Shown here one piece after another: positions 23,853-39,100 of a DNA stretch of 64,000 bases. The stretch lies in the NCBI GenBank assembly GCA_947184155.2, contig CAMXCT020002668.1, forward strand, positions 52,501 through 116,500. The letters are read 5' to 3'. The stretch is from Cladocopium goreaui. Lineage: Eukaryota > Sar > Dinophyceae > Suessiales > Symbiodiniaceae. Numbering within the stretch: position 1 is the stretch's first letter; every line of letters begins with the position of its first letter. Under the pieces are notes generated by a model. It saw nothing but the letters and a program-made list of their open reading frames with translations, had not been told where the DNA came from and searched no databases. Both the position numbers and the translations under genes were made by a program.

Positions 23853-24010
23853 CTGGTATTTGGAGACCCGTAGCCTGAAGCCGCCAAGGTCGTCAGAAAT
23901 TCAATGTATAATTCATTGGTCACAGTGACAAGGGCAAGGTCATACATATACTCTTGGGGGCACCACCGATTTTATGGTGTACATCCAGCTGAGGCATGAG
24001 GCATCTTCAC

Positions 24011-24142
24011 CTCACGCTCCTTGCGATGCTGTCCAGTCGTTCCAATGCAGTCTGGACGCAGAAATCTTTCCAACGTAAAGTCCTTCTCGTCCTCAGCCAC
24101 CCAAAGGCCCAGTGTGCCTTTGGGATCCTCTCCAACCATCTG
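24011..24142 (-). CDS. Exon, host gene A
   Basis: Exactly 44 codons, phase 0 to 0, between ATGTCAG| and GAG|GTGAAG. It reads QMVGEDPKGTLGLWVAEDEK, then DFTLERFLRPDCIGTTGQ. One of the best-defined exons in the window. Confidence 0.7.
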
Positions 24143-24577
24143 CTGACATTTTAGAATGCCCAAGATGAGCCATTTACAAGCGCAAAAACCAATCAATGCG
24201 CACCCACGCTTTTCTATGGCAATTCACATCTACAAGCTGAAAATTGCGATGATTTGTTCCATTGACCCTCCAATTTTCAAGCATTCTCCCCAATTTGTGT
24301 GTATATCAAAACCTCCAAGTGTCTTGTTGTTTCCCCATTCGCTCTCACTCAGCCCTCCATTTGTTTGATTTCTCGTAGGTGTTTTCCTCCATGTTTCCCG
24401 AAATTCCAGATGGGTTCAATTATATACTTATACCGTACTTATACCATCTTAGAACCATTTGCAGAGAGAGAGAGAGAGAGAAATACTCTATATATGTATA
24501 TATATATATATATGTGTGTATATATATATATGTACATATATATATATATGTATATGTATACATCTCTCTCTCCCTCT

Positions 24578-24724
<147 letters not shown>

Positions 24725-24781
24725 TACATGCACAATAGAATCCCAGCTGCAACTTCAACCCATCGCCTATTGCCGTGGCAC

Positions 24782-24926
24782 GGGCCCTGGCAGGTGATGA
24801 AACTCCGCCAGGTCAATGGTGGACAAGGCCTCCAGCTGCTCGGAGGGCTCCAGGACCCCTGAGCGCCTGGACGGGCGAGGCCCCGAGGCCCCGGTGAGGC
24901 TGGGTAAATTGTCATATTTCACTGAC
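24782..24926 (-). CDS. Exon, host gene A
   Basis: 145 nt between TTTCAG| and CCC|GTGCCA. It reads SVKYDNLPSLTGASGPRPSR, then SGVLEPSEQLEALSTIDLAE. One split base at the start fits the upstream exon; it ends in phase 0, matching the next exon. The Pro/Ser-rich then acidic composition suggests a linker. Confidence 0.65.
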
Positions 24927-25167
24927 CTGAAATAAAGATAAAGCCAGATATACAAATACATGTGTGTATGTACAAATATTAGGAGAATTATCCCTAACCA
25001 TCATCTAAGGTGAGGTCGCAGTGAGGTTCTTCTAATTCATTATAATTCACTATGTATAATGAATCAATATGATACGAATGTATCTGCATGATTCTGCATG
25101 TATGGAGTTTCGCATTGTGCAGCTTGGACCCAGAATGGTCAATGAATTTGGGGCCATAGGCATCCAC

Positions 25168-25260
25168 CCATCGCCGCGGCACGACTCATCAGCTGCGTGA
25201 AAGGCAGCCACCGCGGCGTGGCGGTCGAAGTCGCGACACTTGCGGACCAACTTCACAAAC
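25168..25260 (-). CDS. Exon, host gene A
   Basis: 93 nt between CCCAAG| and GATGG|GTGGAT. It reads FVKLVRKCRDFDRHAAVAAF, then HAADESCRGDG. It leaves two bases that join the G of the next exon to form Gly. Confidence 0.6.
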
Positions 25261-26429
25261 CTTGGGTCTGGATGGGGGTTGGGTCAAATATCTATTAACT
25301 CGTTTAATGTCAATTATATATATATAGTATTAAATGTCTACAATTAAACTAATATTTGAGTACTATTGACTAATATGCATTCACCAATCCACCCCAATTT
25401 GATATCATTGTTAAATCATATCATATGAACTTGGCGATAACCTATAACCATAAAAAGAAAATAATATACTAATCTTACATACTTGGATTTAATATGACTT
25501 AATGAGGTACGTTGGCTATATCAATAGATTCCAGTCAGAGATTTGATCACCACATCTTAGCAATCTTTTTGGGGAAACAGAAAACCACTGACCCATCAAT
25601 CGGGTGATTTAAGCATCAAACATTGGGGAGTTGACTGTGTTGACTATCCAATGTGGATCAACTTTGTAAAACAAAATGGGTCGGAAATTGTGCTCTGTTT
25701 CAATGGAAAAATGCTTCAGGATGCCCTGAGTTGGCGATCCAGATTGGGATGGCCAGTCTGCATGGTGATTGGGGGTATCAAAGGGTGAGAAGATCCGAGA
25801 TTTTTTCGAACAGGTATATCCATATGGGATACCATTTATATCCATTTATATCCATTTATTGGGTGTCATATATTCTTAATGTTTAGGTTTACCACATGTT
25901 TTTTCAAAGTCGATGGCCAGCGACTAGCAACTATCTATGGCATCAGGGTCACTAGGGACCTTGAATGATGGAATGAATTCAATTGATGATAATTAATTAT
26001 CCAACCATATCCAACCCATTAATTATAATCAATTGAATTTCCATTAATCATCCTCAATTAATGGAAACTGAATCAATCAATACCAAGTGGAATCCAACCC
26101 AAGAGATTGGATACCAACGGGCATGGAGTTGAACCAAGAGATGGGAGATCACCAAACAGAAATGGAGCATCCTCCGTTTCGCGGGATAAGCTGGCGGAAG
26201 TGGCTTGAGACACCCCGGCACTGGGACGGAAGACTGGGATTCGTCTGGGATCATCCTACCCACCCGGGAATGGCTGGCTCCTAGACCGATCAAAGTTGGG
26301 GCGTGTCACATGTGCGATGACCGTTTGACCATTTGACCAACTTCAATTGTTTTGATGTCCACTGGGACTGGGTCTTTTGAAAATGCCTCGAGCACTCAGG
26401 TTACTCAGGTTCAACCGTCATTTTTCCAC

Positions 26430-26589
26430 CAATGTCCTCCCCAAAGCTTTCCAGCTTGACTTCACAGCTAGGCCCAGCTTAACGCTTTCCGCACCAAGCA
26501 ACGTGGTGTAGTCCAACTGGTCTCCCATGGGATCGGCCTCATAGATCAGTTGTTGTGCCCGGTCGAAGGTATAGCAATGGCCAAGCCAC
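26430..26589 (-). CDS. Candidate exon, host gene A (3' end approximate)
   Basis: After GTTCTCAG| the minus strand reads WLGHCYTFDRAQQLIYEADP and then MGDQLDYTTLLGAESVKLGL. Clearly protein-like. The donor is unsettled, and at least one exon is probably missing before 25,260. Confidence 0.5.
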
Positions 26590-27049
26590 CTGAGAACCTA
26601 GCGATGAATGTTGTCCCGAATCTGCTATATCGTAATATACAGTATCCCGTTGTCATTGCAGATTCAGGGTTTCTATCGGAAAACGGTTGGCACAAAAAAA
26701 CATCCAAAAAAAACGCCGCCTTGTGGTGGCATCTAGTTCACATATGTTCAAGGGACGACATAGCTGGATTTTTTCCGGCGTGAAAGCTTCAAGCCGCTAT
26801 GAATGGTTGCTGTTGGGTTGTTGGATGACTGCTATAGCTGCTATGATGATCCAACCAACTCTAGGGACCAATGGGAGATTGATTACAATTGACAAAAACA
26901 TCTAGCCAGGAAGTCCACGAAAGCATCAAAAACATATCGGAAGAATCATTTCCATGGCATAGACTCTGATTGGAGATACCCTCCGATCATCAAACGTTCA
27001 AACGTGGCAATGGAAAATCACTCATTTACAGATATTTAAAAATTATAAA

Positions 27050-27145
27050 TGGATATTCTCCATATTTAATGGATATTTTCCATATTAAATAGATATTCTC
27101 CATATTAAATTGATATTTTCCATATTGGATTGATATTTTCCATAT
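27050..27145. repeat. ~20-bp AT-rich tandem repeat
   Basis: About five imperfect copies of a GATATTYTCCATATTAAAT-like unit. A further GTAAATGATG repeat lies at 27,420-27,465, and a doubtful minus-strand exon (WDARIPTSVLHKALGR) near 27,230-27,310 was left uncalled. Confidence 0.75.
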
Positions 27146-27675
27146 ATATATATATTCCATATTAATATATATATATATGTGTATAATAGTTGGTTTTTCA
27201 TGATTTTCCCATTAACAGCTCTATTCTCGTGGATTTCCCAGCCATGCTTGGTCCCACGTCCTAGCGCCTTGTGCAACACGGAGGTCGGAATCCTGGCATC
27301 CCACGGGATGATCAGAAATGTTCGTAAGAACTATGCCATGTGATATCTACATATCTGGATATATATCATATAATATAGGTAAATGCTGGGTGATATATAG
27401 ATCATAGATCATATAGGTAAATGATAGTAAATGATGGTAAATGATGGTAAATGATGGTAAATGTATGTAACATACCCTGCAGGCCCCACAAAATGCGCTC
27501 AAGAGCCCCGAAAGTTAAAACCACCCTTTTTTCCCTTCATCAAACCCGCACGACACACTCGGAAATTTGGAAAGAAAAAATATAAGAACCCTTTTGCTTT
27601 CTTCGTAAAATTTCACATAATTAAGGTGATTCAAAAAAATGGAAATCCTGTTGAAATTATATGACTATCATATTA

Positions 27676-27915
27676 CTAGGCCTCAGCCCAGCCTGCCTTT
27701 TTCCGACATGAAGCTGAGGATTTTGGACTCTGATGGTTCAGAGTCTCCTGTTAAAGAAACGTGAAATTCATCTCTTTGAAACATTGGTCTCCATGGAAGG
27801 AGATCTCCTTAGGATTTCATACCTCCCCCATGGAAGGGGTTTTCTTTGTGGTGTTTTTGGTCCATGGAAGGACGACCACGAAAAAGAAAATCATGCATTG
27901 AAACGGTGGTTCTCC
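27676..27915 (-). repeat. Elt2 repeat B, outer copy
   Basis: 240 bp, apparently identical to 28,023-28,262. A small open plus-strand frame inside each copy is not considered a gene. Confidence 0.9.
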
Positions 27916-27947
27916 CTCGGCCTCAAAAAGGGCGGTGAGGGTTTGGG

Positions 27948-28024
27948 TGAGCACAAAAGCTCTTGATATCAAAACGACATCGTCAAAACGTCTGGCTTCT
28001 GCCTAGTATTCAAACAGAATGCCT
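27948..28024 (-). repeat. Elt2 repeat A, inner copy
   Basis: 77 bp, identical by eye to 35,299-35,375. It overlaps the next B copy by two bases. In Ngaro-type elements the inner A-B junction serves to template full-length circular DNA; that role is inferred here. Confidence 0.9.
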
Positions 28025-28262
28025 AGGCCTCAGCCCAGCCTGCCTTTTTCCGACATGAAGCTGAGGATTTTGGACTCTGATGGTTCAGAGTCTCCTGTTA
28101 AAGAAACGTGAAATTCATCTCTTTGAAACATTGGTCTCCATGGAAGGAGATCTCCTTAGGATTTCATACCTCCCCCATGGAAGGGGTTTTCTTTGTGGTG
28201 TTTTTGGTCCATGGAAGGACGACCACGAAAAAGAAAATCATGCATTGAAACGGTGGTTCTCC
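28023..28262 (-). repeat. Elt2 repeat B, inner copy
   Basis: 240 bp direct copy of 27,676-27,915, lying about 70 bp downstream of the recombinase stop codon. Confidence 0.9.
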
Positions 28263-28330
28263 ACGGCCCCTACCACGAGCTGATGACAAAAGCAGCTTGT
28301 AGAGGACGAAAAAGTGATACTTGGCCCTAG

Positions 28331-29284
28331 TCACGGAGTCTTAAGCTGTTCTGAACATGACCACTGCTTTAGCATGCTACGAGCTTTGGCGCTAAAAGAC
28401 AACCCTGGTAAGTAGCTGAGCCCATCAGCCAAATATATTTTGGCTACTTTCGTTGATTGCCAGCGTCCTTTGAGCAATGCAGTCTCCATACTGCCTGTTT
28501 GTTGAAATAATGCCGTCGCTCCACCCCTTCTTAACGAATAGGGTCGAAAGTTTAGTTTCAAGACATCAAAGATTTGACAGTGATACCTGAATTCGTTGCG
28601 GAAGCTTGAGGGGGATCTAACCCATATGGGTACCTTATGCATGCCTTGCGCTTGTTGGTCCTCTGAGGCTGCACGGAGAATTTCCAGCGCCACTACATTT
28701 GTTATGCTGACAGTTTCCTGCGCTGCATTTCTGAGTCCTGTTTTGGTGTTTTTCAGACTTATAACGCCGCTCTTGTTTCCTAAGATCATGTCGCATGGTC
28801 TGATCTGGAGCAGTTCACCCGTCCGCAGCAACCCATAGAAACCCAAACAGATCATTGCAGCGAAGCTTAGGTTCCTATGGGCTATGGCATAAAATAAAAA
28901 GGCATCCACTATTTCAGCTGTCAAAGGTGGAGCCCGATTGGGGGCTTCCACCTTTCTCCATACTTTAAACAAACGCCATGACAGTGCCAGCTTGTTCTTT
29001 GTCCATGGTTCGTAGTGCTGAAGACCACACAGTGCATCACTTATGATATGTAGTGCTTCCCCCTCTTCCCAAGCTTTTTGTATCCAATCAGAGACTCTCT
29101 CATCAAGGGCCCTTCCAGTTGTGACCCCACCTAGGTATGGTAATAGTTTCTGTACCCCGATGAAATACCTTTCCTGAGTTTTCTTTGTGATCGCGGCATC
29201 CCACAGTAGGATTTTTCTGCGATCTGCTACTCTTTCAGCCCGTGTTTTTCGATGGAAGCATTGCCACCGTCCTGCTGGCCTCAT
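28331..29284 (-). CDS. Elt2 tyrosine recombinase
   Basis: Integrase of the DIRS/Ngaro class. The first ATG in frame is at 29,284 (317 aa); the frame is open from 29,335 using a TTG. It overlaps the end of pol by 50 nt in another frame. Visible catalytic features: the first Arg in GLLRTGEL, a YSLRRGGAT box where the family has HxxR or SLRRGG, GRW at the next conserved His/Trp site, and KIYL with the nucleophilic Tyr near the C-terminus. Order and spacing suit an active enzyme. How it is translated (reinitiation or frameshift) is not visible. Confidence 0.85.
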   Translation of the reverse strand: MRPAGRWQCFHRKTRAERVADRRKILLWDAAITKKTQERYFIGVQKLLPYLGGVTTGRALDERVSDWIQKAWEEGEALHIISDALCGLQHYEPWTKNKLALSWRLFKVWRKVEAPNRAPPLTAEIVDAFLFYAIAHRNLSFAAMICLGFYGLLRTGELLQIRPCDMILGNKSGVISLKNTKTGLRNAAQETVSITNVVALEILRAASEDQQAQGMHKVPIWVRSPSSFRNEFRYHCQIFDVLKLNFRPYSLRRGGATALFQQTGSMETALLKGRWQSTKVAKIYLADGLSYLPGLSFSAKARSMLKQWSCSEQLKTP

Positions 29285-32200
29285 CTGTAGGATTGTCAGT
29301 GCTTTCCACGTGCGAGATGATGCAATGAATCCCAAAAGCCAGTAAAAGTGCGTTGACCTTCTTGAGTACCCGAGAAAGCTGTCTGCTGCTGGTGCGTCCC
29401 TTCGAGATCACGCTCATGCAGATATAGCTATCAGTCACATGGAAGACCCTAAGATGACAAGCTTTTAAGTGCATGATGTGGTATCTGATTGCATGTAGAA
29501 TGGTCCGCAGTTCCAAAACGTTGATATGTTCACTTAATTTCCACTTGTAATTAAACAAATGCTCCCATTTCCACCATGACGCTTCAATGCTCTGCCGTAC
29601 AACTGCCTTAGGGTTGAGGAACTCCCCCGTAGAAATTCGTACATCAGATCCAGTGTGATTGGTCTTGGAAAGGAGAATTTGGTTTAAGCTTTTAGTAGTC
29701 ACAGGCCGCGGTATAGTGGAACTTCCATATTGCAACCTCCGCCTAATTGGTGCCGTGCATCTGAGTGAACAAGTGAATCCTGGAGCCAACCCCATTCTGT
29801 CAACTAACTGACTGTACTGCAATGTGGGTAGAAGGTGTTTGCACAATGCCGCTGCTGGGATGATGAAGGAGAAGACGCTAAAGCTATCCCCCAATAAACA
29901 CAACCGCTCATCTTCGTATTTCTGCCCCGAACTCTTGATTTTGGAAGCACTGAAACACAGTTTGGTGTGGTTAAAACCGTAACCCAAAAGTAGTTCCTTC
30001 TCAGAGCTATTGGCAAGCCTCCATTTGTCATCCGTCCAGAAAATAAACCTGGGTAAATAGTGATATGGGGGAAAACGGTAACTGTCAGAGGTCCAACGTG
30101 CCAATGTGTCTGTATCACACCTGTGTATGCCCGCCGGAGCTGGTGGCGGCCTTTTTCGCTCAATGCTCTTTAGCGCAGTAGGCAGAGTATAGCCTTCATC
30201 TCCACCGGGCCACCACGCGCCTTCAGTTATCCAGTCAGCTTGCTGTGGATACGCGGCTGGGGCAGAAACAGTAACCCAGTACTGCTCTTCGCTGAAAGTT
30301 ATTCCTCCGAGGCAGCCCTCAAGACATTCGGATGTCCAGCATAACCTGGGTCTCTGCATAGGCACAGCATCCGCACAGTTGAGATGGTATGGTTTCACCT
30401 GCAGTTCTTCAGTTATCCGTTCACATTCGTGCTTGGGCATTGACGCCACATTCTCAGCTATGAACTTGACCTTAACATGTCCTATCTCCTTGAGCTCCTT
30501 CAAGACCCGCTTCAGTTCATAGAACAGAGATGATTGCGGCCCATCCAATCCCTGGCCTCTGACATTGACCGATGATAGGTCTACACATGGAAAGCCTCCC
30601 CATACGTGCAATTCAGTAACTGTGGGATATCTCATGAGAAGTTGTTCCAGTTGTGCCTTGTTCAGTTGTCTGACATCTCCAAAAAGCTCTGCATGGGGCC
30701 ACCGACGGGAAGTGATTCTCATTGCAGGTTGGTGAATGTCAAAGGCCACCAGCGCATCAGGTCGGATTCCCAGCACGTCGTAAGCTCTAAATGACCCTCC
30801 TATTGCATGAAACAGTGACAACACCATGATGCCCGTGGGCTGGGGGTTGTCAGCTCTCAAATTGCTCCTCACAAAGTCTTCTCCTTCGCTGCTGAGTTGT
30901 GTTGCGATACCAACCGCCCCTCCAATGCTTGAGGCGTCACTGGCAGTTATGACCTCTGAAATCTCAGCTCCCAGGAATGTGTGCATCATAGGTAGTCCAC
31001 ACATACAAGCAAACAATTCTCGGCGAACTTTGTACTGGAGGTCCAGTAGCGTCCCTTTTGAGCTAATAAACTCCCAGGTACTCTCTAAAAAACTCATGGC
31101 TGGTCGCCGATACTGAAACACATGTATCCATCTTCCAGCTATGACCTGCAGTAGCTTTCGTGACAACGTTCTCCTGCTCAAGAGTGCCATAGTTCCCAAA
31201 AGTAAGTTGATCATCCTCTCTGGCGAGGGGCCCATTGTGCGCTCACTTCCATTCAGATATGCTCCCAACTCTTGTCCAGTGATTTCTCCTGATTTTCGCT
31301 TCTTTGCCGCTGACACTACTCCAGCAGCTGCCCACAACCGTTCAGCCTCTTGGTGAATAATCTCACCTGAAAGAAAAGTGCTCCCTGATTTGTCAATCTC
31401 CCCTGCTGCAAAATTGTCCAGGTATATATGCCACCACGCTCGCCCAGACGTGCGAGATTCATCCAATAAACCAACCATCCATTTCGGCAGCGGTTTACCC
31501 CTGACTACTTGGCTACATTCCGGCATGTTGCCCCCTAACAAGAGTTTCTCACTTACTTCCTGCATGATTGAAACTGAGCTTCCCCAGCCCATTGGAAGTA
31601 CACAACATGCCAAGCAAAATAAAGTTTGATCATCTCCTCCATAAATCTCGCAATGTTTGTGTACAACATTAAAAGCCAGAAATCTCTGCCATTTCTCCGG
31701 AAGCCGAAACAGATAAAATGCATTTGACATGTCACTTTGCCATAAACGCAGTTCTTCTCCATGTTCAACGTAGGTAGACAGCCAGGAAGTTATATGAGGA
31801 AGCCGTTTTGTGAACCCTTTGAACTGTTTGAGAATGGAGTTGCTGGGCACCAGGTTCATGATTAATCGCAAAATGGGTTTCTTTCCATCAACAAGCCCAC
31901 TTTTTTCCACGCCAAACAAACCATTAAGGACCTTCTCTTTCCTAAACTCAGCAACTTGTGTCCAAGGTATCCAAGTGCACACCCCTCGATCAACCAGCTC
32001 CGCCGCAATTTTCTTAATCTCATTCCCCTGAACGTGGATTTTTCCCTGTAGCTTTGGCAATTGCTGACCCACATCTTCAACAACCAGTTTTTCGGGATTA
32101 TCAAGGAAGTGCTTGGTGGTCTCCGAAACATACTCCAACACGTCAATAGATCCCCCATGTTGTTTTGGTGGTAAGGCCGGCAAAATTTGCTCCAAACTTA

Positions 32201-32771
32201 GGCAGTGACAAACTCCTATTTCTTCCCCCTCATAACTAACCCTGCGCTTCTTCAACTCTTTTTCAACCGCCTCAGTGTCTTTCACCTCCGCATGGCCGTG
32301 GCTTAACATCCTATTGACAGTCTGTTCCACGGCAGCCACCAGTCGAGTCTCCAGTGCAGTCCACTTTCCCTTCAAAAAGGGAGTGTGGCCATGTCCTAAA
32401 GTCTGGCAGGCATAACATGACAGCATGGTCCAGGCAGTTCGACTCCACAGGCTTGTGAAATCCTCGGTAACCGAGTCTGTTAAATTCACACTTGCAAAAA
32501 GCCGTAGTGCTGAGGCAAAATCTCCCTCGTGCAAAGGAAAGATGGCACGCTTGCGAGCCACCCTGTGCTTCATGCCGGGGGTGAAGAAGTCCCTCACCTG
32601 AAAAACCGTGTCATGCAACTCTGTAATATTGCAGCCGTGAGCCAGGCACCATGCCAGCGCACATCCACTCCTTTTCAAGGTTGTGCAGCAGCTCAGCACC
32701 TCACTCCAACCTGTGGTTGAAACCAAACTGGGCCTCTTGCTCTCGACGGATTTTTCCAGAGAGCCACCCAT
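29235..32771 (-). CDS. Elt2 Pol: RT, split RNase H, inserted C5-MTase
   Basis: 1178 aa from the ATG at 32,771, whose A is also the last base of the previous ORF's TGA. Order: N-terminal region; reverse transcriptase with LRLIMNLVPSN, QSDMSNAFYLF and IYLDNFAAG (YLDN at about residue 450); RNase H start with TASDAS (about 611); C5-MTase (about 645-980); then RNase H resumes with INVLELRTILHAI (Glu about 1085), HVTDSYICM (about 1112) and NPTDEASR (about 1163). The four acidic RNase H residues are thus kept but separated by the MTase. The frame stays open upstream to 34,466, but that part is a shadow of ORF2. Confidence 0.85.
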   Translation of the reverse strand: MGGSLEKSVESKRPSLVSTTGWSEVLSCCTTLKRSGCALAWCLAHGCNITELHDTVFQVRDFFTPGMKHRVARKRAIFPLHEGDFASALRLFASVNLTDSVTEDFTSLWSRTAWTMLSCYACQTLGHGHTPFLKGKWTALETRLVAAVEQTVNRMLSHGHAEVKDTEAVEKELKKRRVSYEGEEIGVCHCLSLEQILPALPPKQHGGSIDVLEYVSETTKHFLDNPEKLVVEDVGQQLPKLQGKIHVQGNEIKKIAAELVDRGVCTWIPWTQVAEFRKEKVLNGLFGVEKSGLVDGKKPILRLIMNLVPSNSILKQFKGFTKRLPHITSWLSTYVEHGEELRLWQSDMSNAFYLFRLPEKWQRFLAFNVVHKHCEIYGGDDQTLFCLACCVLPMGWGSSVSIMQEVSEKLLLGGNMPECSQVVRGKPLPKWMVGLLDESRTSGRAWWHIYLDNFAAGEIDKSGSTFLSGEIIHQEAERLWAAAGVVSAAKKRKSGEITGQELGAYLNGSERTMGPSPERMINLLLGTMALLSRRTLSRKLLQVIAGRWIHVFQYRRPAMSFLESTWEFISSKGTLLDLQYKVRRELFACMCGLPMMHTFLGAEISEVITASDASSIGGAVGIATQLSSEGEDFVRSNLRADNPQPTGIMVLSLFHAIGGSFRAYDVLGIRPDALVAFDIHQPAMRITSRRWPHAELFGDVRQLNKAQLEQLLMRYPTVTELHVWGGFPCVDLSSVNVRGQGLDGPQSSLFYELKRVLKELKEIGHVKVKFIAENVASMPKHECERITEELQVKPYHLNCADAVPMQRPRLCWTSECLEGCLGGITFSEEQYWVTVSAPAAYPQQADWITEGAWWPGGDEGYTLPTALKSIERKRPPPAPAGIHRCDTDTLARWTSDSYRFPPYHYLPRFIFWTDDKWRLANSSEKELLLGYGFNHTKLCFSASKIKSSGQKYEDERLCLLGDSFSVFSFIIPAAALCKHLLPTLQYSQLVDRMGLAPGFTCSLRCTAPIRRRLQYGSSTIPRPVTTKSLNQILLSKTNHTGSDVRISTGEFLNPKAVVRQSIEASWWKWEHLFNYKWKLSEHINVLELRTILHAIRYHIMHLKACHLRVFHVTDSYICMSVISKGRTSSRQLSRVLKKVNALLLAFGIHCIISHVESTDNPTDEASRTVAMLPSKNTG
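29830..30840 (-). other. Elt2 DNA cytosine-5 methyltransferase domain
   Basis: Motif I: MVLSLFHAIGGSFRAYDVLG (about 30,775-30,835), the SAM-binding FxGxGG-like loop. Motif IV: GGFPCVDLSSVN with the catalytic Cys codon at 30,585-30,587 (about Pol residue 729). Motif VI: AENVAS (30,446-30,460). Motif VIII: QRPRL (30,346-30,360). A Trp-rich putative target-recognition region follows, then SEKELLLGYGF, like motif IX, and GDSFSV, like motif X. All key residues are present, so activity is plausible. Retrotransposon C5-MTases are known from Symbiodinium relatives; the likely role, self-methylation of the new DNA copy, is inferred. Confidence 0.85.
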
Positions 32772-34516
32772 CACTTGTCCCCTGGTGTCTCCTTGCTCTT
32801 GGCCCAGTCCGAGGTTTTCTCGTCCCAGGTCCCTTGGTTGCCCTTGTGCTTTCCTTTCTTGCCGCGATCTTTGCCCTTTCCTTTCTCGCCCTTGCCAGCG
32901 TTGCTGAAATCGCCGGACCCTTTCCAACCGCCTTTTCCACGACCTCGCGCTCCCCAGCCCCAATTGCCCCATGCCGGAGTTCCTTTCCCTTGTACCTTGT
33001 CTACTAACCTTCCATGTTTTCGTGAGGCCAGGACAATTGAGGCCGATCCTGCGGCGCTTTCTTCCATAGGATGTAGTTCCATGAAGCGCGCCGTGGTCCA
33101 TCCATTGTCCAGGATGCTTTGATGTAGCGCCATGAAGCGCGCTGCCAACGAGTCTCCAACCCTCGCTATGTCTCCCCTCCTGAGGAGGTCCATCGTAGCA
33201 GCGAGGGAATGCATTTCCCTCAGTTCCCTCAGGAAAGTGGGATGCGCCGGTCTCACTTGTTGGGCGAAGTATGTGGCTAACTTCACCCCTGAAGTCACTG
33301 CTTGATGACCTTGGGGAAGATCGGTAAGTGCCGCTTGTTCCATTTGATCTCTGACATGGTTCACCAACATTGCCAGCACACTTCCCGGTTTGTCCCGGCT
33401 TCGTTTCTTGACCGGGGCTTCGAGATCTGTCTCTGACTCGTCCCTCTTCTCCTCCGAGTCCGAAGATGCGCTCGAACTGGCACTGTAGCTGCGTATCGTC
33501 CCATCTGCTAGGACTGTGCGCTTTCTCTTCTTCTTCTTCTTCTTCTTTTTCTTCTTGCCATCCCGTGTAAGGATCTTGGCTAGCGCTTCTGCCATCTCCT
33601 TGCCAGGATGCTTGCTCTTCTTTTTCTTCTTCTTCTTCGCCTCCTGATTGGTCACTTCCAGAGCTTTCAAAGCCAGCTGGCCGCTCCAGCTTCTGGTAGA
33701 AATGTCTCTTATAGCTGATGGATCTTCCACCTCCTCTGCGTGCGCGCCATCGCCTCGGCGAAGTGCCGGCGGGCGCCGTGTGGGGAGAGTTGTTCCCGTT
33801 CCCAGTGGTTCTTCCTCGTCTGTATAAGACGATTTCTCCTCGGAGCTTGCAACCACCTCTGATTCCTCGACGTCTGCGGCTGGAGTGCCAGCGTCTTTCA
33901 TTTTCTTTGCGGCCGCCAACTTCTCGCGGAGCTTGGCTCTGAGATCTCCCGGTATGGCAGTGTCGGTCCCAGGCTTCTCCTTGTGCGCACGGCGACGGGC
34001 CGGCCCGGCCAACCGGCCAGCGGCCCTGCCAGCGACAGGAGCTTTGCGCCCAGGCCCCTTTTTGCCTCCCGAGGTCTCTCCCTTCTCCTCTTCCAAAGCC
34101 TTGATCCACCGTTTGGCGGCGGTCCACTTGGAAGCCACTACATAGTCGCACCCTTTGAAGTTCTCGAAGCTCCAAAGCCTGACCGTAGTGACGTGAATAT
34201 CTGCCTCGGGCTCTATATCCACACAAGGCCTTGACAAGCATAGGTGAATTCTCAGCACCCTCCTGGGTGCCGTCTCCTCCAACTGCTTTCCCAAATCGGG
34301 GTCGGTGCATCCCATGTAATGACCAGACAAAACCAAGCTTCCGTCTAGACGGTTTTCTACCTTGCTGATAAAATAGGCAGCCCAGTCGTCTTCCACATGA
34401 GCCAATGACGAGGTTTTGGCACTGAATTCTACGACTAGGCCGGGTACTGGTTGCAGACCGCTCCATTGTTCGTGTGAGTCCACGTCAATTTCAGCTCCCT
34501 CAGGGAAATTGGCCAT
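32771..34516 (-). CDS. Elt2 ORF2, second gag-like protein
   Basis: 581 aa from ATG at 34,516, one base after the TGA of ORF1. Residues 1-130 look globular and acidic, with no family I recognise. Then come basic, Lys-rich linkers with poly-Lys runs (about 33,525-33,560 and 33,615-33,640), a Ser/Asp-rich patch, and a Gly/Lys/Trp-rich C-terminus (GNWGWGARGRGKGGWKG) like an RNA-binding tail. Likely a nucleocapsid-type or chromatin-binding structural protein. Its TGA overlaps the pol ATG as TGATG. Confidence 0.75.
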   Translation of the reverse strand: MANFPEGAEIDVDSHEQWSGLQPVPGLVVEFSAKTSSLAHVEDDWAAYFISKVENRLDGSLVLSGHYMGCTDPDLGKQLEETAPRRVLRIHLCLSRPCVDIEPEADIHVTTVRLWSFENFKGCDYVVASKWTAAKRWIKALEEEKGETSGGKKGPGRKAPVAGRAAGRLAGPARRRAHKEKPGTDTAIPGDLRAKLREKLAAAKKMKDAGTPAADVEESEVVASSEEKSSYTDEEEPLGTGTTLPTRRPPALRRGDGAHAEEVEDPSAIRDISTRSWSGQLALKALEVTNQEAKKKKKKKSKHPGKEMAEALAKILTRDGKKKKKKKKKKRKRTVLADGTIRSYSASSSASSDSEEKRDESETDLEAPVKKRSRDKPGSVLAMLVNHVRDQMEQAALTDLPQGHQAVTSGVKLATYFAQQVRPAHPTFLRELREMHSLAATMDLLRRGDIARVGDSLAARFMALHQSILDNGWTTARFMELHPMEESAAGSASIVLASRKHGRLVDKVQGKGTPAWGNWGWGARGRGKGGWKGSGDFSNAGKGEKGKGKDRGKKGKHKGNQGTWDEKTSDWAKSKETPGDK

Positions 34517-34517
34517 C

Positions 34518-35291
34518 TCAATAGCCCAGACGCGTGCACTCAAGGGGCTTCTCCTGCGTAGAAGTGAGCTCCCAGAAGTCTGCGGCTGGTTTTCGATGAA
34601 CCCTCAAAGTAGGATCTACTGCCAATCTCTTCAAGCGCTGATGCTTGCGCCCTCCTCGAGTGCGGCCTCTCCTTGAACTATGTCCGTCTCGATGTTCTCG
34701 ATGCTCTCGTTTTCGGGATCTCCTGGACCTGTCGGACGCACGGGTGCTCCCAGCGTCACGGGCCCTGCGGGATTCCCTTCGATCGCCTCCTTCTCCGCGA
34801 TGGGTGTCAGGCTCAGGCGGTCGCCTTGAACCGTCTGGCAAAGGCCGATGATCAGGGGCTGGGCTTCGACCCACTGATCGGTCCCTGGTCTCCTCCTCTG
34901 ATTCTTCTCCTTCTTCGCTCTCCTCCTCCTTTGGGGGCAATGGTGGAGGTGGAAGAGGTGCCCTCCTTCGGGGCAAAGAATCACGTCCCGTATGGGGCTG
35001 CTCTGCTCGGCGCTTGGGCTTGGCGGCGGGTACAGGAACCTCTGCACGGCCAGTGCCAGCAGAAGGACCACCTGCTACCCTGGCCAGCCCAGAGCTGAGG
35101 GATCTGAGCGCCTTAACCTGGCGCGCGGCGGTGACTGCCAAGTCACCTGCCAGCACCCTGGCTCCCTCAGAATCCCAACTGGCCGTAAGTTCCCTTCCAA
35201 GGAACTCCCAAGCGCTGCAGCCCGTGCACCACGAGTCGCCCTCCGCCGCTGCTATCTGGTGACACTTAGTGCAGCGGGGACCGGGGGGCAT
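34518..35291 (-). CDS. Elt2 ORF1, zinc-ribbon/SR-rich gag-like protein
   Basis: 257 aa, starting 8 nt inside repeat A. Residues 6-29 have a CTKC...CTGC pair that could bind zinc. A Pro-rich and Glu/Ser-rich middle follows, then a long Arg/Ser/Asp/His-rich tail like SR proteins, fitting RNA binding. It ends TGA, then G, then the ATG of ORF2 (TGAGATG), a spacing compatible with coupled reinitiation. The gag role is inferred from position and composition. Confidence 0.7.
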   Translation of the reverse strand: MPPGPRCTKCHQIAAAEGDSWCTGCSAWEFLGRELTASWDSEGARVLAGDLAVTAARQVKALRSLSSGLARVAGGPSAGTGRAEVPVPAAKPKRRAEQPHTGRDSLPRRRAPLPPPPLPPKEEESEEGEESEEETRDRSVGRSPAPDHRPLPDGSRRPPEPDTHRGEGGDRRESRRARDAGSTRASDRSRRSRKREHREHRDGHSSRRGRTRGGRKHQRLKRLAVDPTLRVHRKPAADFWELTSTQEKPLECTRLGY

Positions 35292-35298
35292 CAGATTT

Positions 35299-35375
35299 TG
35301 AGCACAAAAGCTCTTGATATCAAAACGACATCGTCAAAACGTCTGGCTTCTGCCTAGTATTCAAACAGAATGCCT
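35299..35375 (-). repeat. Elt2 repeat A, 5' copy
   Basis: 77-bp direct copy of 27,948-28,024, forming the 5' end of the element on the minus strand. The promoter presumably lies here or just outside it. Confidence 0.9.
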
Positions 35376-35974
35376 TAAACTTATATTATAGTATATCATA
35401 GTATATATTATATTGTCCATCATGTATTGGCCAATATTGTGTTTAGATGATCATATACTGCGGGAAGCCATGCCCGATTATAGAATGATATGACGTGGCA
35501 AAAAAAGAATTGTATATGATACATTATAATACTATATAGTTTAATTCAATTATGACCCTTTAAACCTTACGGACCTATAGCCTATATACTACAAACACTG
35601 ACAAATATAGAGGACATTATACAAAGACATTATACAAAGACATTATACAAAATTATACAGCCCCCTTTCCAGGAAAACCTTGGCCCAACATGTTGGAATG
35701 TTGTTGTTTCCACCGGTGTTGACTTAAGAAAAAGTGAGAGCCCCTTTGTCTTAATTGCCAGGTTTTAGGTTTTTATATTGATTCCCAGAAGCTCGAACAG
35801 GCAGTTTTAGGCATACGGGAATTGCTGGTGCTCCAGTGCTACCCCAGGGCCCAGGGTATGCAATTTTAGTTCAAAACATGTTAAAAATCATGTTTCCACT
35901 GTTGCGGGCTTCCCCATGTATATATATTAATATATATATATATATAATGATATATATATATCTCTCTCTCTTCA
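35376..35974. other. AT-rich intergenic stretch
   Basis: No gene seen. Contains a triplicated ACATTATACAAAG motif (35,612-35,655) and AT repeats. It lies between the 5' end of Elt2 and the stop codon of the EF-hand gene. Confidence 0.55.
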
Positions 35975-36123
35975 TTATACCAGCACTTTTGTTGCTTCCC
36001 CGTCTGTTTCTTTGGAATCTTTGGCAACTTGTCCGAAAATGGCACCAAGCGTCCTTTCGGTGTCGTCGCTCTTGTTCCTTTGGAAGGCTTTGCGGAGGTC
36101 GTTCATCTGGGCATCTGTGAAGC
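35975..36123 (-). CDS. Terminal exon of the EF-hand gene
   Basis: 149 nt after GGTCACAG|, with two split bases and then 49 codons to TAA at 35,975-35,977. It reads GFTDAQMNDLRKAFQRNKSD, then DTERTLGAIFGQVAKDSKET. The opening helix resembles the entering helix of an EF-hand, but no complete Ca-binding loop follows. Confidence 0.65.
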
Positions 36124-39100
36124 CTGTGACCAACAATCTCAACATCAAGCGGATGGGGACCATGACCAATCATCAAGACCATGAGCCATAAAAACTAAAC
36201 AAGAAGATGGTTTTCTGGTTGGTGGTTGAGCCACCCCTCTGAAAAATATGAAAGTCAGTTGGGATCATTATTCCCAACATCTGGAAAAATAAAACTGTTC
36301 CAAACCACCAACCAGTTTTGAATGTTTTTGAATGATGTCAAAGCGGTGATTATGGAAAAGTCATTTTTCCATATTTTTCCCATTGGAATTCACATGAGTT
36401 AAGCCTTCAGGGAATCTGTGCAAGAGGAAACTCCATCAGGTCCCATGTCATCCCGCAGCCGCCTTCGCGATTACGCAGGCAGTGCAGCAAGGTGCATACA
36501 TCGTCCATGTCCATGCGAATCCCGCTCAAATCCTTAGATCGCTGCCCTGGTTCCCGATCAATTCATGGATAAAGGATGCCATGTAATCTTTGACCCTGCA
36601 CAACCATAGATCTATCGTTCAGTTCAGCCTCGGCCCCTTAGTCTAGTTCCTAGTTTCCCATCAGGAGTCAGGAGTGCCTAAAAATGCCACCAAGACGGCC
36701 CCAAAGAACCAAAGCTTCATCCAGCGAACACCCAAAAAACCAGGCGTCTGCAGGACTTTGACCATCTCAACCCCATTACCTCCTAGTGGCGAACCCTGGC
36801 GAACCCTTTCACCACCCAGTTTCTCACTTTCTGCAGTTAGTGTTACGTGTAATACGTCTGGACGGGAAATAGATGGCAATGTGACACCGTGAAAACCTAA
36901 GCCAGGTCTCGCGAGTAAGAGGGCCCAAAATGAATATGCATATGCATTTACATATACATATATAATGACATAAGTAAACAATACATAGATGAACAAATGT
37001 ATTAAAAATGAAAGAAGTACATAAATATATACATGAATAAAAGAAAGGAAGAAATAGAGAAGTAAATATATAGATAGATAAACAGATAAATATATATATA
37101 TATGTATATATATACAAACGGATAAACAATAAAAAAAAAAACTGTAAATATAAACAAACAAATACATAACGAAAGAAAGAAATACGAATACAAAAAAACA
37201 AAACGATACAAAAAATAATTCACATCCAATAATGATGACTAAAGCATGGTTTCTAGGATAGCCCAACTGGCCCAAGTTTCGATCAATTGCTCTGGATCTG
37301 TCTTGCCACAAAATCCAGCCTCTTGCATCGCATCCTGCAGCTGCATAGCTATTGAACATGGCCATGGCGTTCGTTTTACCTATGAAAAATGGTGATTTTC
37401 GAAGATTTCCCTAGGAAATTTGATGAAATTTGGGGATCTCCCAAGATTTTCCATCGCAAACCATGTGAAAAATTTCCAGAGGTCAGTATGAATTAGCTGG
37501 ATTTGTAAAATTGACTCCCTAGGTCCTAGCCGCCTAGCCATTGGGGACCAAGATTCTTCAGCTAGCAATTCTTAGGGACGTGTTTGAATATCGGCTCCTT
37601 GATCGATGGTGATCTATCATCAAAATTCATCAAAATTCATCAAACACCAAACAAAAATGACGAGGAATCCGAGGGACGATCAAAGCTGCAGCTGACGCTT
37701 GATATCCCAACTTGATCAACAGCGCCTGCAGCGAGCTGGCATCGTTCTGAGGAATGCCACGTGCCTTTGACATCCTTTGGACATGGAGAAAATGAATGAA
37801 AATGGTGCTTTCCCGGGAGATCACAGCCGGGTCTCTTCGCATCATCCATGATTCCTATGAATACATCGCCGAGGTCACTTCTGGTGGCAGATAAGATGAT
37901 CCCTCACTGCATCGAAACTCCTTGCAATTCACAAACCTGAAGTAAACTAAGTAAACCATTTTGGCAAGGACCGGGAAGGACATGAAAAACGCCCCAAGAG
38001 GTCAGTATGATTCTCATTCCCTGCCGCTGAAAGTTTCACCCCTGTCCACCTCCAGTTCTCTGACTGAAGAAATGCGCTGGCCGTAGCCGTTGGCCACGGC
38101 TCGCTCTCGCAGGAATTGGCGTATCGTCGACAGCTCCGCATCCTGAGTTTTTTTCTAAGTGGCGGAGGACGCTTTTTCTTACCGTTATAGCCAGTAAAAC
38201 TCCACCCAATGATTCTGATTTAATACGTGTTTTGGGCCAGAAAACAGGGCACCCCTATGTTCAAAGCCATCATTTCGAGGCCGTCATTTCCCCTATCTTT
38301 GGCCCATCCCCCACCAAACCCATCGCCCATTGTCCAAGGCGCTTGGATATGCCGCAGGCAAATCACGAATTCCGACTCACTGAGCACTCCGTTGCCTGGA
38401 CCAGCTGAACCCACTTCGTGCCCTTTGGTGTCTTTGTTTGCTATGTGACTGGCATAAAACGTAGATATACAGATATATGTATATATATATATTATACATG
38501 GAAGAAAAGAAGAAGAAGATGATGATGATGATGATGATGATGGATGATGATGAACTGTAAGGCTATATATATATCCCTATATGTAATTATCTGTTTTGCC
38601 ATACATATAGTATAAGCTCTGTAATATGCATCTCACACTCATCTGATCACATTGTGGGTGTGATTTTAGAAACAGATGAGGGTAACGAAGCACATGTGTT
38701 TATCTGTGTTTATCTATTTGGGAGCCGCTGGGGTCATTTTTGACTGTTCGATGACTAGAATGCCCGGCACCCTCGAGACGATACGTTCTGAAACTCCTTG
38801 AGGGGATAGTGTCTGCTGACGTGGTCCTGTCATTGTGCTGTCACCCTGTCGAGCTGCCATTCATGTCGCTTTCCTTGTACAGGCTCTGGACCTTGTCGTT
38901 GGTGTAAGGAAATCCCAGCCAGGATAACCTCAGGAGCAAGGCAGCGAAGCACGATGAAGCCGGGCCATCATGGGTTCGAAAAATTAGGTAACCCCAAATC
39001 TCATGGTTGAGAAAATCAATGAACAACAACAAAATGTTGGTCTTCCCAGATGTTTTCCCATGTTTTTTCACCCATTTCCTGCCATAAACGGAGGTGAACA

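Follow-up and report, generated by a model that had tools for sequence, protein, structure and literature searches.

The closest described relatives of the retrotransposon analysed here are the SymbioDIRS-Dnmt3 elements (de Mendoza et al. 2018, PMC5890265). According to the main text of that paper, they occur in Symbiodiniaceae, have A-coding-B-A-B repeats and encode a Dnmt3-like methyltransferase (MTase) together with a reverse transcriptase (RT) in one Pol open reading frame (ORF), with the tyrosine recombinase in a separate ORF. That text describes two structures that differ in domain order and have Pol and integrase shuffled, and infers independent acquisitions. Our element spans 27676-35375 (minus strand) of the window, by which we mean the whole 64,000-nucleotide stretch of Cladocopium goreaui DNA that was analysed (contig CAMXCT020002668.1, positions 52,501 to 116,500). 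It agrees with these elements in host family, repeats and coding content and is of the SymbioDIRS-Dnmt3 kind already known; the original prediction was thus right that C5-MTases of dinoflagellate retrotransposons had been reported earlier. Unlike the picture in that main text, the relatives with YxDD and those with YxDN at the RT active site have one MTase insertion point here, and the 13 loci examined share one ORF order, in which the recombinase follows Pol; the second ORF-order structure given in that text was not recognised among our loci.

Ngaro elements also combine split direct repeats (A-pol-B-A-B) with a tyrosine recombinase, but their Pol consists of RT and RNase H, and the passages of PMC3783388 at hand describe a methyltransferase for DIRS and not for Ngaro, whereas the window Pol carries an MTase. 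DIRS1-like elements with a Dam-type N6-adenine methyltransferase are likewise tyrosine-recombinase retrotransposons with a DNA methyltransferase in Pol; they differ in the unrelated MTase type, in their inverted terminal repeats and, in the same passages, in a methyltransferase listed after RNase H. The catalytic domain of DNMT3A/3B/3C is about 22% identical to the window MTase, which is without the other DNMT3 domains and is predicted to be nested in RNase H. No such nesting is reported in the titles and abstract starts searched or in the passages of PMC3783388, PMC6338049 and PMC12344493. The main text of PMC5890265 does not contain "nested", "split" or "inserted"; figures, supplements and most subscription papers lay outside the search, so a figure may show the arrangement.

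Both sequence conservation and the predicted structure support a Pol in which the RT is succeeded by a single RNase H folded around the MTase. The domains follow each other as RT, RNase H strands b1-b2, a complete DNMT3-like C5-MTase, a linker and the rest of RNase H:

29235..32771, minus strand: Pol ORF (Met plus P0001, 1177 amino acids, plus stop), from the open reading frame
31089..31901, minus strand: RT core (Pol about 290-560; D346, YLDN at 449-452), from a weak RVT_1 match (E 0.028) and conservation
30894..30965, minus strand: predicted RNase H b1-b2 (Pol 602-625) with the first catalytic Asp, D611, from model strands and conservation
29826..30842, minus strand: nested DNMT3-like C5-MTase (Pol 643-981), from the family scan and fold matches
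29574..29825, minus strand: linker with a GSDV motif between the MTase and RNase H b3 (Pol 982-1065), from the model and motif conservation
29262..29573, minus strand: predicted RNase H b3-aA-b4-aB-aD-b5-aE (Pol 1066-1169; E1086, D1113, D1162), from the predicted structure

The motif TASDAS with D611 (30930-30947) stands ahead of all MTase motifs. These are, in the standard motif numbering, motif I (30789-30824), IV with the Cys (30573-30599), VI with ENV (30435-30458), VIII with RPR (30342-30359) and X (29871-29900). The set of I, IV (PC), VI (ENV), VIII (RxR) and X is complete, and the enzyme is of the C5 type, not the Dam-type N6-adenine one. Only after the MTase come HINVLE (29511-29528, E1086), VTDS (29427-29438, D1113) and NPTDEASR (29271-29294, D1162). 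This order, from TASDAS through the MTase to NVLE, VTDS and NPTDEASR, had been read from the window by the original prediction. It is borne out by the coordinates and by the family set of 121 sequences (the query and 120 among the matches listed in the first protein search), 116 of which have all four RNase H acids and the C, EN and R/R residues of the MTase in order. A chance arrangement of motifs is ruled out by this conservation and by that in 178 long sequences described below. The RT catalytic motif is YLDN (31413-31424) and not YxDD, with N in all 115 family sequences that have letters there.

RNase H of type 1 has the canonical layout b1-b2-b3-aA-b4-aB-aD-b5-aE, with its acids D, E, D and D at b1, aA, b4 and aE. 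The AlphaFold2 model (predicted local distance difference test, pLDDT, 91.7; predicted template modelling score, pTM, 0.89) follows this layout and places the acids accordingly, with b1-b2 (D611) before the MTase and linker and b3-aA-b4-...-aE after them, as the original prediction had proposed in reading the MTase as an insertion into an RNase H loop. MTases filled the listed fold matches of the large model and hid RNase H; the C-terminal half was therefore folded alone for the fold search. By itself it resembles RNase H1 and the RNase H of human immunodeficiency virus (HIV) minus b1-b2, and b3, a strand when the N-terminal part is present, forms no strand; therefore, the MTase is predicted to be an insertion in the b2-b3 loop of RNase H. 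Two outcomes that the original prediction had named as contrary to it, a complete RNase H ahead of the MTase and a different fold for the C-terminal acids, were not found: a second full RNase H is ruled out by the distance of 29-52 residues from D611 to MTase motif I in the 178 sequences, and the C-terminal half is RNase H-like in the model. The MTase might instead be a mere linker domain between separate modules, in which case TASDAS would be part of the RT connection and the C-terminal acids would lie in an incomplete or different fold of their own. No sequence model identified an RNase H convincingly, which would agree with such a linker; the RNase H-like C-terminal model, the presence of the missing b1-b2 with its invariant Asp ahead of the MTase, and the dependence of the predicted b3 on the N-terminal part make it very improbable. 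Pfam matches at E up to 1 in P0001 and seven relatives of other clades were confined to the MTase, a weak RT or both, with no RNase H, and NCBIfam NF010482 matched the joined halves at E 0.022 in one of 12 sequences. Since Pfam is blind to RNase H here, the split domain may be missed in model-based annotation.

The arrangement was followed through 353 proteins, including P0001, among the matches listed in protein searches, the later of which were weighted towards RT. The long set comprises 178 of them, which carry both an RT and a DAS-type motif and extend for more than 650 residues beyond the RT motif. In this set, D611 is present in 178/178, E1086 wherever that position is occupied (175/175), D1113 in 172/178 and D1162 in 171/178; the MTase keeps its C and E772 in 176/178 each and N773 in 172/178. 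The linker has a GSDVR-type motif in the window (29637-29651), and a GSDV-like one occurs in 175/178. The first Asp and HINxLE were both found by pattern in 170 of the 353 proteins, which span several deep clades, and their spacing is 435-529 residues in every case; the remaining 183 have one motif absent by pattern, many being truncated. The insertion point is common to elements with YxDN (129/178) and the distant ones with YxDD (49/178). Patristic distances of RT and MTase correlate at r = 0.955 over 171 sequences, a value reached in none of 500 permutations, and at 0.927 and 0.92 within the YxDD (48) and YxDN (123) sets. The recombinase ORF follows Pol in 10/10 YxDD loci (L031-L040) and in three YxDN copies (L002, L005 and L008). 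The spacing and the agreement of the trees would fit a single ancient insertion passed on by descent; a second, independent insertion into the same loop may be an alternative, the trees being without host DNMT3 outgroups.

Five of the 353 proteins have no MTase motif by simple pattern. P0169 ends shortly after the RNase H Asp, P0237 continues into unrelated sequence past the MTase start, and P0257, P0258 and P0276 carry degenerate MTases. Searches of the viral contig and genome contig collections found no relative of any kind. DIRS elements without DNMT exist in Symbiodinium according to the main text of PMC5890265, and failure to find MTase-free relatives is no proof that such relatives do not exist. 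Removal of the insert from RNA or protein, as an intron or in an intein-like manner, would also leave a normal RNase H and is a known way of tolerating inserted domains. We found no evidence supporting it; the insert keeps the reading frame and its catalytic residues and evolves under purifying selection, an element copied through RNA would lose an intron, and an insert-free relative is seen in none of the 170 sequences, which leaves such removal scarcely credible.

Copies of the element were searched for in the 1.17-Gb genome. Against a 98% identical copy on another contig of the same genome (C5920), synonymous and nonsynonymous changes number 18/3 in RT, 30/7 in the MTase and 9/1 in the second RNase H half, with nonsynonymous-to-synonymous rate ratios (omega) of 0.05, 0.06 and 0.03. 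Six pairs at synonymous divergence (dS) 0.07-0.5, from which those with L023 were excluded, give omega of 0.05-0.09 for the MTase and 0.04-0.08 for RT; closer pairs have too few changes for omega. In the window's family, purifying selection acts with similar strength on the MTase, on RT and on the second RNase H half; among YxDD copies, the MTase omega is 0.05-0.16. Further copies (L002-L030) come from 39 scored matches, a number that includes the window. Of 12 catalytic residues that were checked, 24 of these 29 copies have every one, the other five being four cut matches and one N773S; among the YxDD loci they are kept in 9/10, the remaining match stopping short of the second half. L023, in which the MTase is unlike and the RT and RNase H are alike, is a +1/-1 frameshift pair, and a domain swap is ruled out. 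L010-L012, L014 and L016-L018 are near-identical copies, each with at least one in-frame stop in Pol, and are possibly non-autonomous families moved in trans.

Known C5-MTases are inactive once the catalytic Cys is lost, and MTases without it are retained in several members of a third clade. In the same genome, L041-L043 read GGPPSEAFS (Cys to Ser) with no ENV-like motif, and L044-L046 read GGPPTQGRS (Cys to Thr) with EGV. In P0257/P0258 of that clade, motifs IV and VI are gone (PC to PL), and RT and RNase H motifs are intact in the full-length P0257. The relatives L047-L049, P0240 and P0222 keep PPC, with ESV at motif VI (DSV in P0240), and the Cys is present in all three sampled of 33 matches outside the returned loci. 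On the RT tree, the Cys would most simply have been lost three times, the alternative being one loss and one regain. The dead domains keep full-size RNase H spacing (481 in the L041-L043 type and 478 in the L044-L046 type), five of the six loci are stop-free, and within-group dS is 0-0.017. L041-L043 are most likely separate insertions because they lie on three contigs and their sequences diverge at or just past the terminal repeats; L044-L046 are alike across all sequence fetched and may be duplicates of one insertion. Such retention of a dead, full-size nested MTase in near-identical copies is a new finding.

Collectively, we propose with a probability of roughly 0.75 that a DNMT3-type C5-MTase was inserted long ago in the b2-b3 hairpin loop of a dinoflagellate element's RNase H, was co-inherited with RT from then on within one RNase H, and would methylate CpG of double-stranded complementary DNA (cDNA) still held by RT/RNase H. 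New copies would then reach the CG-methylated genome already methylated. Imprecise deletion of the MTase would destroy RNase H because the insert separates b1 and its catalytic Asp, ahead of it, from the remaining three acids behind it; the MTase would thus be locked in by nesting even after loss of catalysis, which would account for both its lasting retention and the dead full-size domains. According to the main text of PMC5890265, de novo CG methylation in yeast was shown for two SymbioDIRS domains in isolation, and methylation of cDNA was suggested by the authors. Self-methylation of the cDNA is plausible by analogy with that assay. The yeast result, in which the targets were chromosomes, and the mostly CG-methylated Symbiodinium genome described in the same text would also suit an MTase whose main target is host chromatin, either around the integration site or across the whole genome. 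That text attributes host methylation, as likely, to the highly expressed DNMT5/DNMT6, and nesting in RNase H would favour action on the RT-held product, so that a chromatin target appears distinctly unlikely.

Several observations weigh against the proposed reading. The structures are predictions and not solved, Foldseek E-values for the C-terminal half are 0.04 or worse, 12 of the 50 VIA rows align from HIV RT 431, ahead of b1, rather than from b3, and none of the RNase H family models (Pfam, PDB hidden Markov models) recognised the joined halves convincingly. No MTase-free relative, as an empty-site ancestor would be, and none with the halves close together was found among the protein matches listed. 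Coevolution of the RNase H halves is weak, with 7 of the first half's top 20 partners in the second half against a background of about 20%. Within the family, the b1-b2 segment gives few hints of constraint, in contrast to the other parts: synonymous/nonsynonymous codons number 0/1, 1/2 and 1/3 in comparisons of the window copy with L002 and L003 and of these with each other, none at D611 and too few to judge; three other pairs give 2/1, 4/0 and 4/3, again none at D611. The constraint on b1-b2 is evident from conservation across families, on the sequences compared, and the codon counts within the family speak neither way. The observed/expected CpG ratio is 0.646 in the element (0.561 in Pol alone) versus 0.637 in the rest of the window, where 7.7-kb stretches outside the element have a 5-95% range of 0.546-0.720; compared with the rest of the window, CpG is not depleted over the full element. 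Finally, the dead-MTase elements seem to have moved recently. They may have been helped in trans by active ones, and MTase activity seems not strictly needed for movement because near-identical relatives are without the catalytic Cys. Of the original interpretation, the placement of the MTase inside an RNase H loop holds in the predicted structures, and self-methylation of nascent DNA stands as a hypothesis, with the absent CpG deficit and the Cys-less near-identical relatives on the other side.

The same observations bear on whether the MTase is a structural passenger, retained since its deletion would break RNase H, with catalysis bringing little benefit. The lack of a CpG deficit, the absence of MTase-free spacing in all 170 sequences with both halves, and the probably repeated Cys loss with a full-size insert kept in near-identical copies speak for it; the MTase omega in the window's family, like that of RT, and the near-invariant catalytic residues indicate that most lineages seen select for the MTase, and we regard a mere passenger as unlikely. 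A combined form is conceivable, though we hold it only tentatively: the nested MTase would have become irremovable as a structural element of RNase H; in one clade it would repeatedly have turned into a dead pseudo-MTase serving Pol (e.g. as a DNA-binding or product-holding lobe), and in most lineages it would also methylate nascent cDNA.

The remaining features of the element, whose layout is A1-ORFs-B1-A2-B2 (split direct repeats), are as follows:

27676..35375, minus strand: whole tyrosine-recombinase retrotransposon, from the split direct repeats
35299..35375, minus strand: A1 repeat, 77 nt, 77/77 identical to A2, from repeat comparison
27948..28024, minus strand: A2 repeat, from repeat comparison
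28023..28262, minus strand: B1 repeat, 240 nt, 240/240 identical to B2, from repeat comparison
27676..27915, minus strand: B2 repeat, from repeat comparison
34518..35291, minus strand: 257-amino-acid ORF, Arg/Ser-rich, first in transcript order, no convincing family, from the ORF list and family scan
32771..34543, minus strand: 590-amino-acid ORF in the gag position, no convincing family, from the ORF list and family scan
28331..29335, minus strand: tyrosine recombinase ORF overlapping the Pol end, from a weak Phage_integrase match (E 0.0062, under the curated cut-off) and conservation of the ORF in relatives

In transcript order, the 257- and 590-amino-acid ORFs are followed by Pol and the recombinase. 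The stop of the 590-amino-acid ORF shares bases with the Pol start in TGATG (32773-32769), which suggests coupled termination-reinitiation. Inverted terminal repeats were not found at 24000-38000 with arms of at least 25 nt, where only AT-rich low-complexity tracts are inverted. The A and B repeats are the same as in L002 (B, 239 nt, also in L003), yet the intervening element is about 3% different; the identical termini may reflect constraint or homogenisation.

The proposed nesting, which recurs in very distant relatives of the element (the YxDD and YxDN sets), would give a physical reason why a retrotransposon retains a silencing-type enzyme for so long. The removal of RNA and the methylation of DNA would be coupled in one folded unit, whose nested domain occurs naturally in both an active and a dead state, and whether a retrotransposon methylates its own cDNA, and for what purpose, would become testable with one protein.
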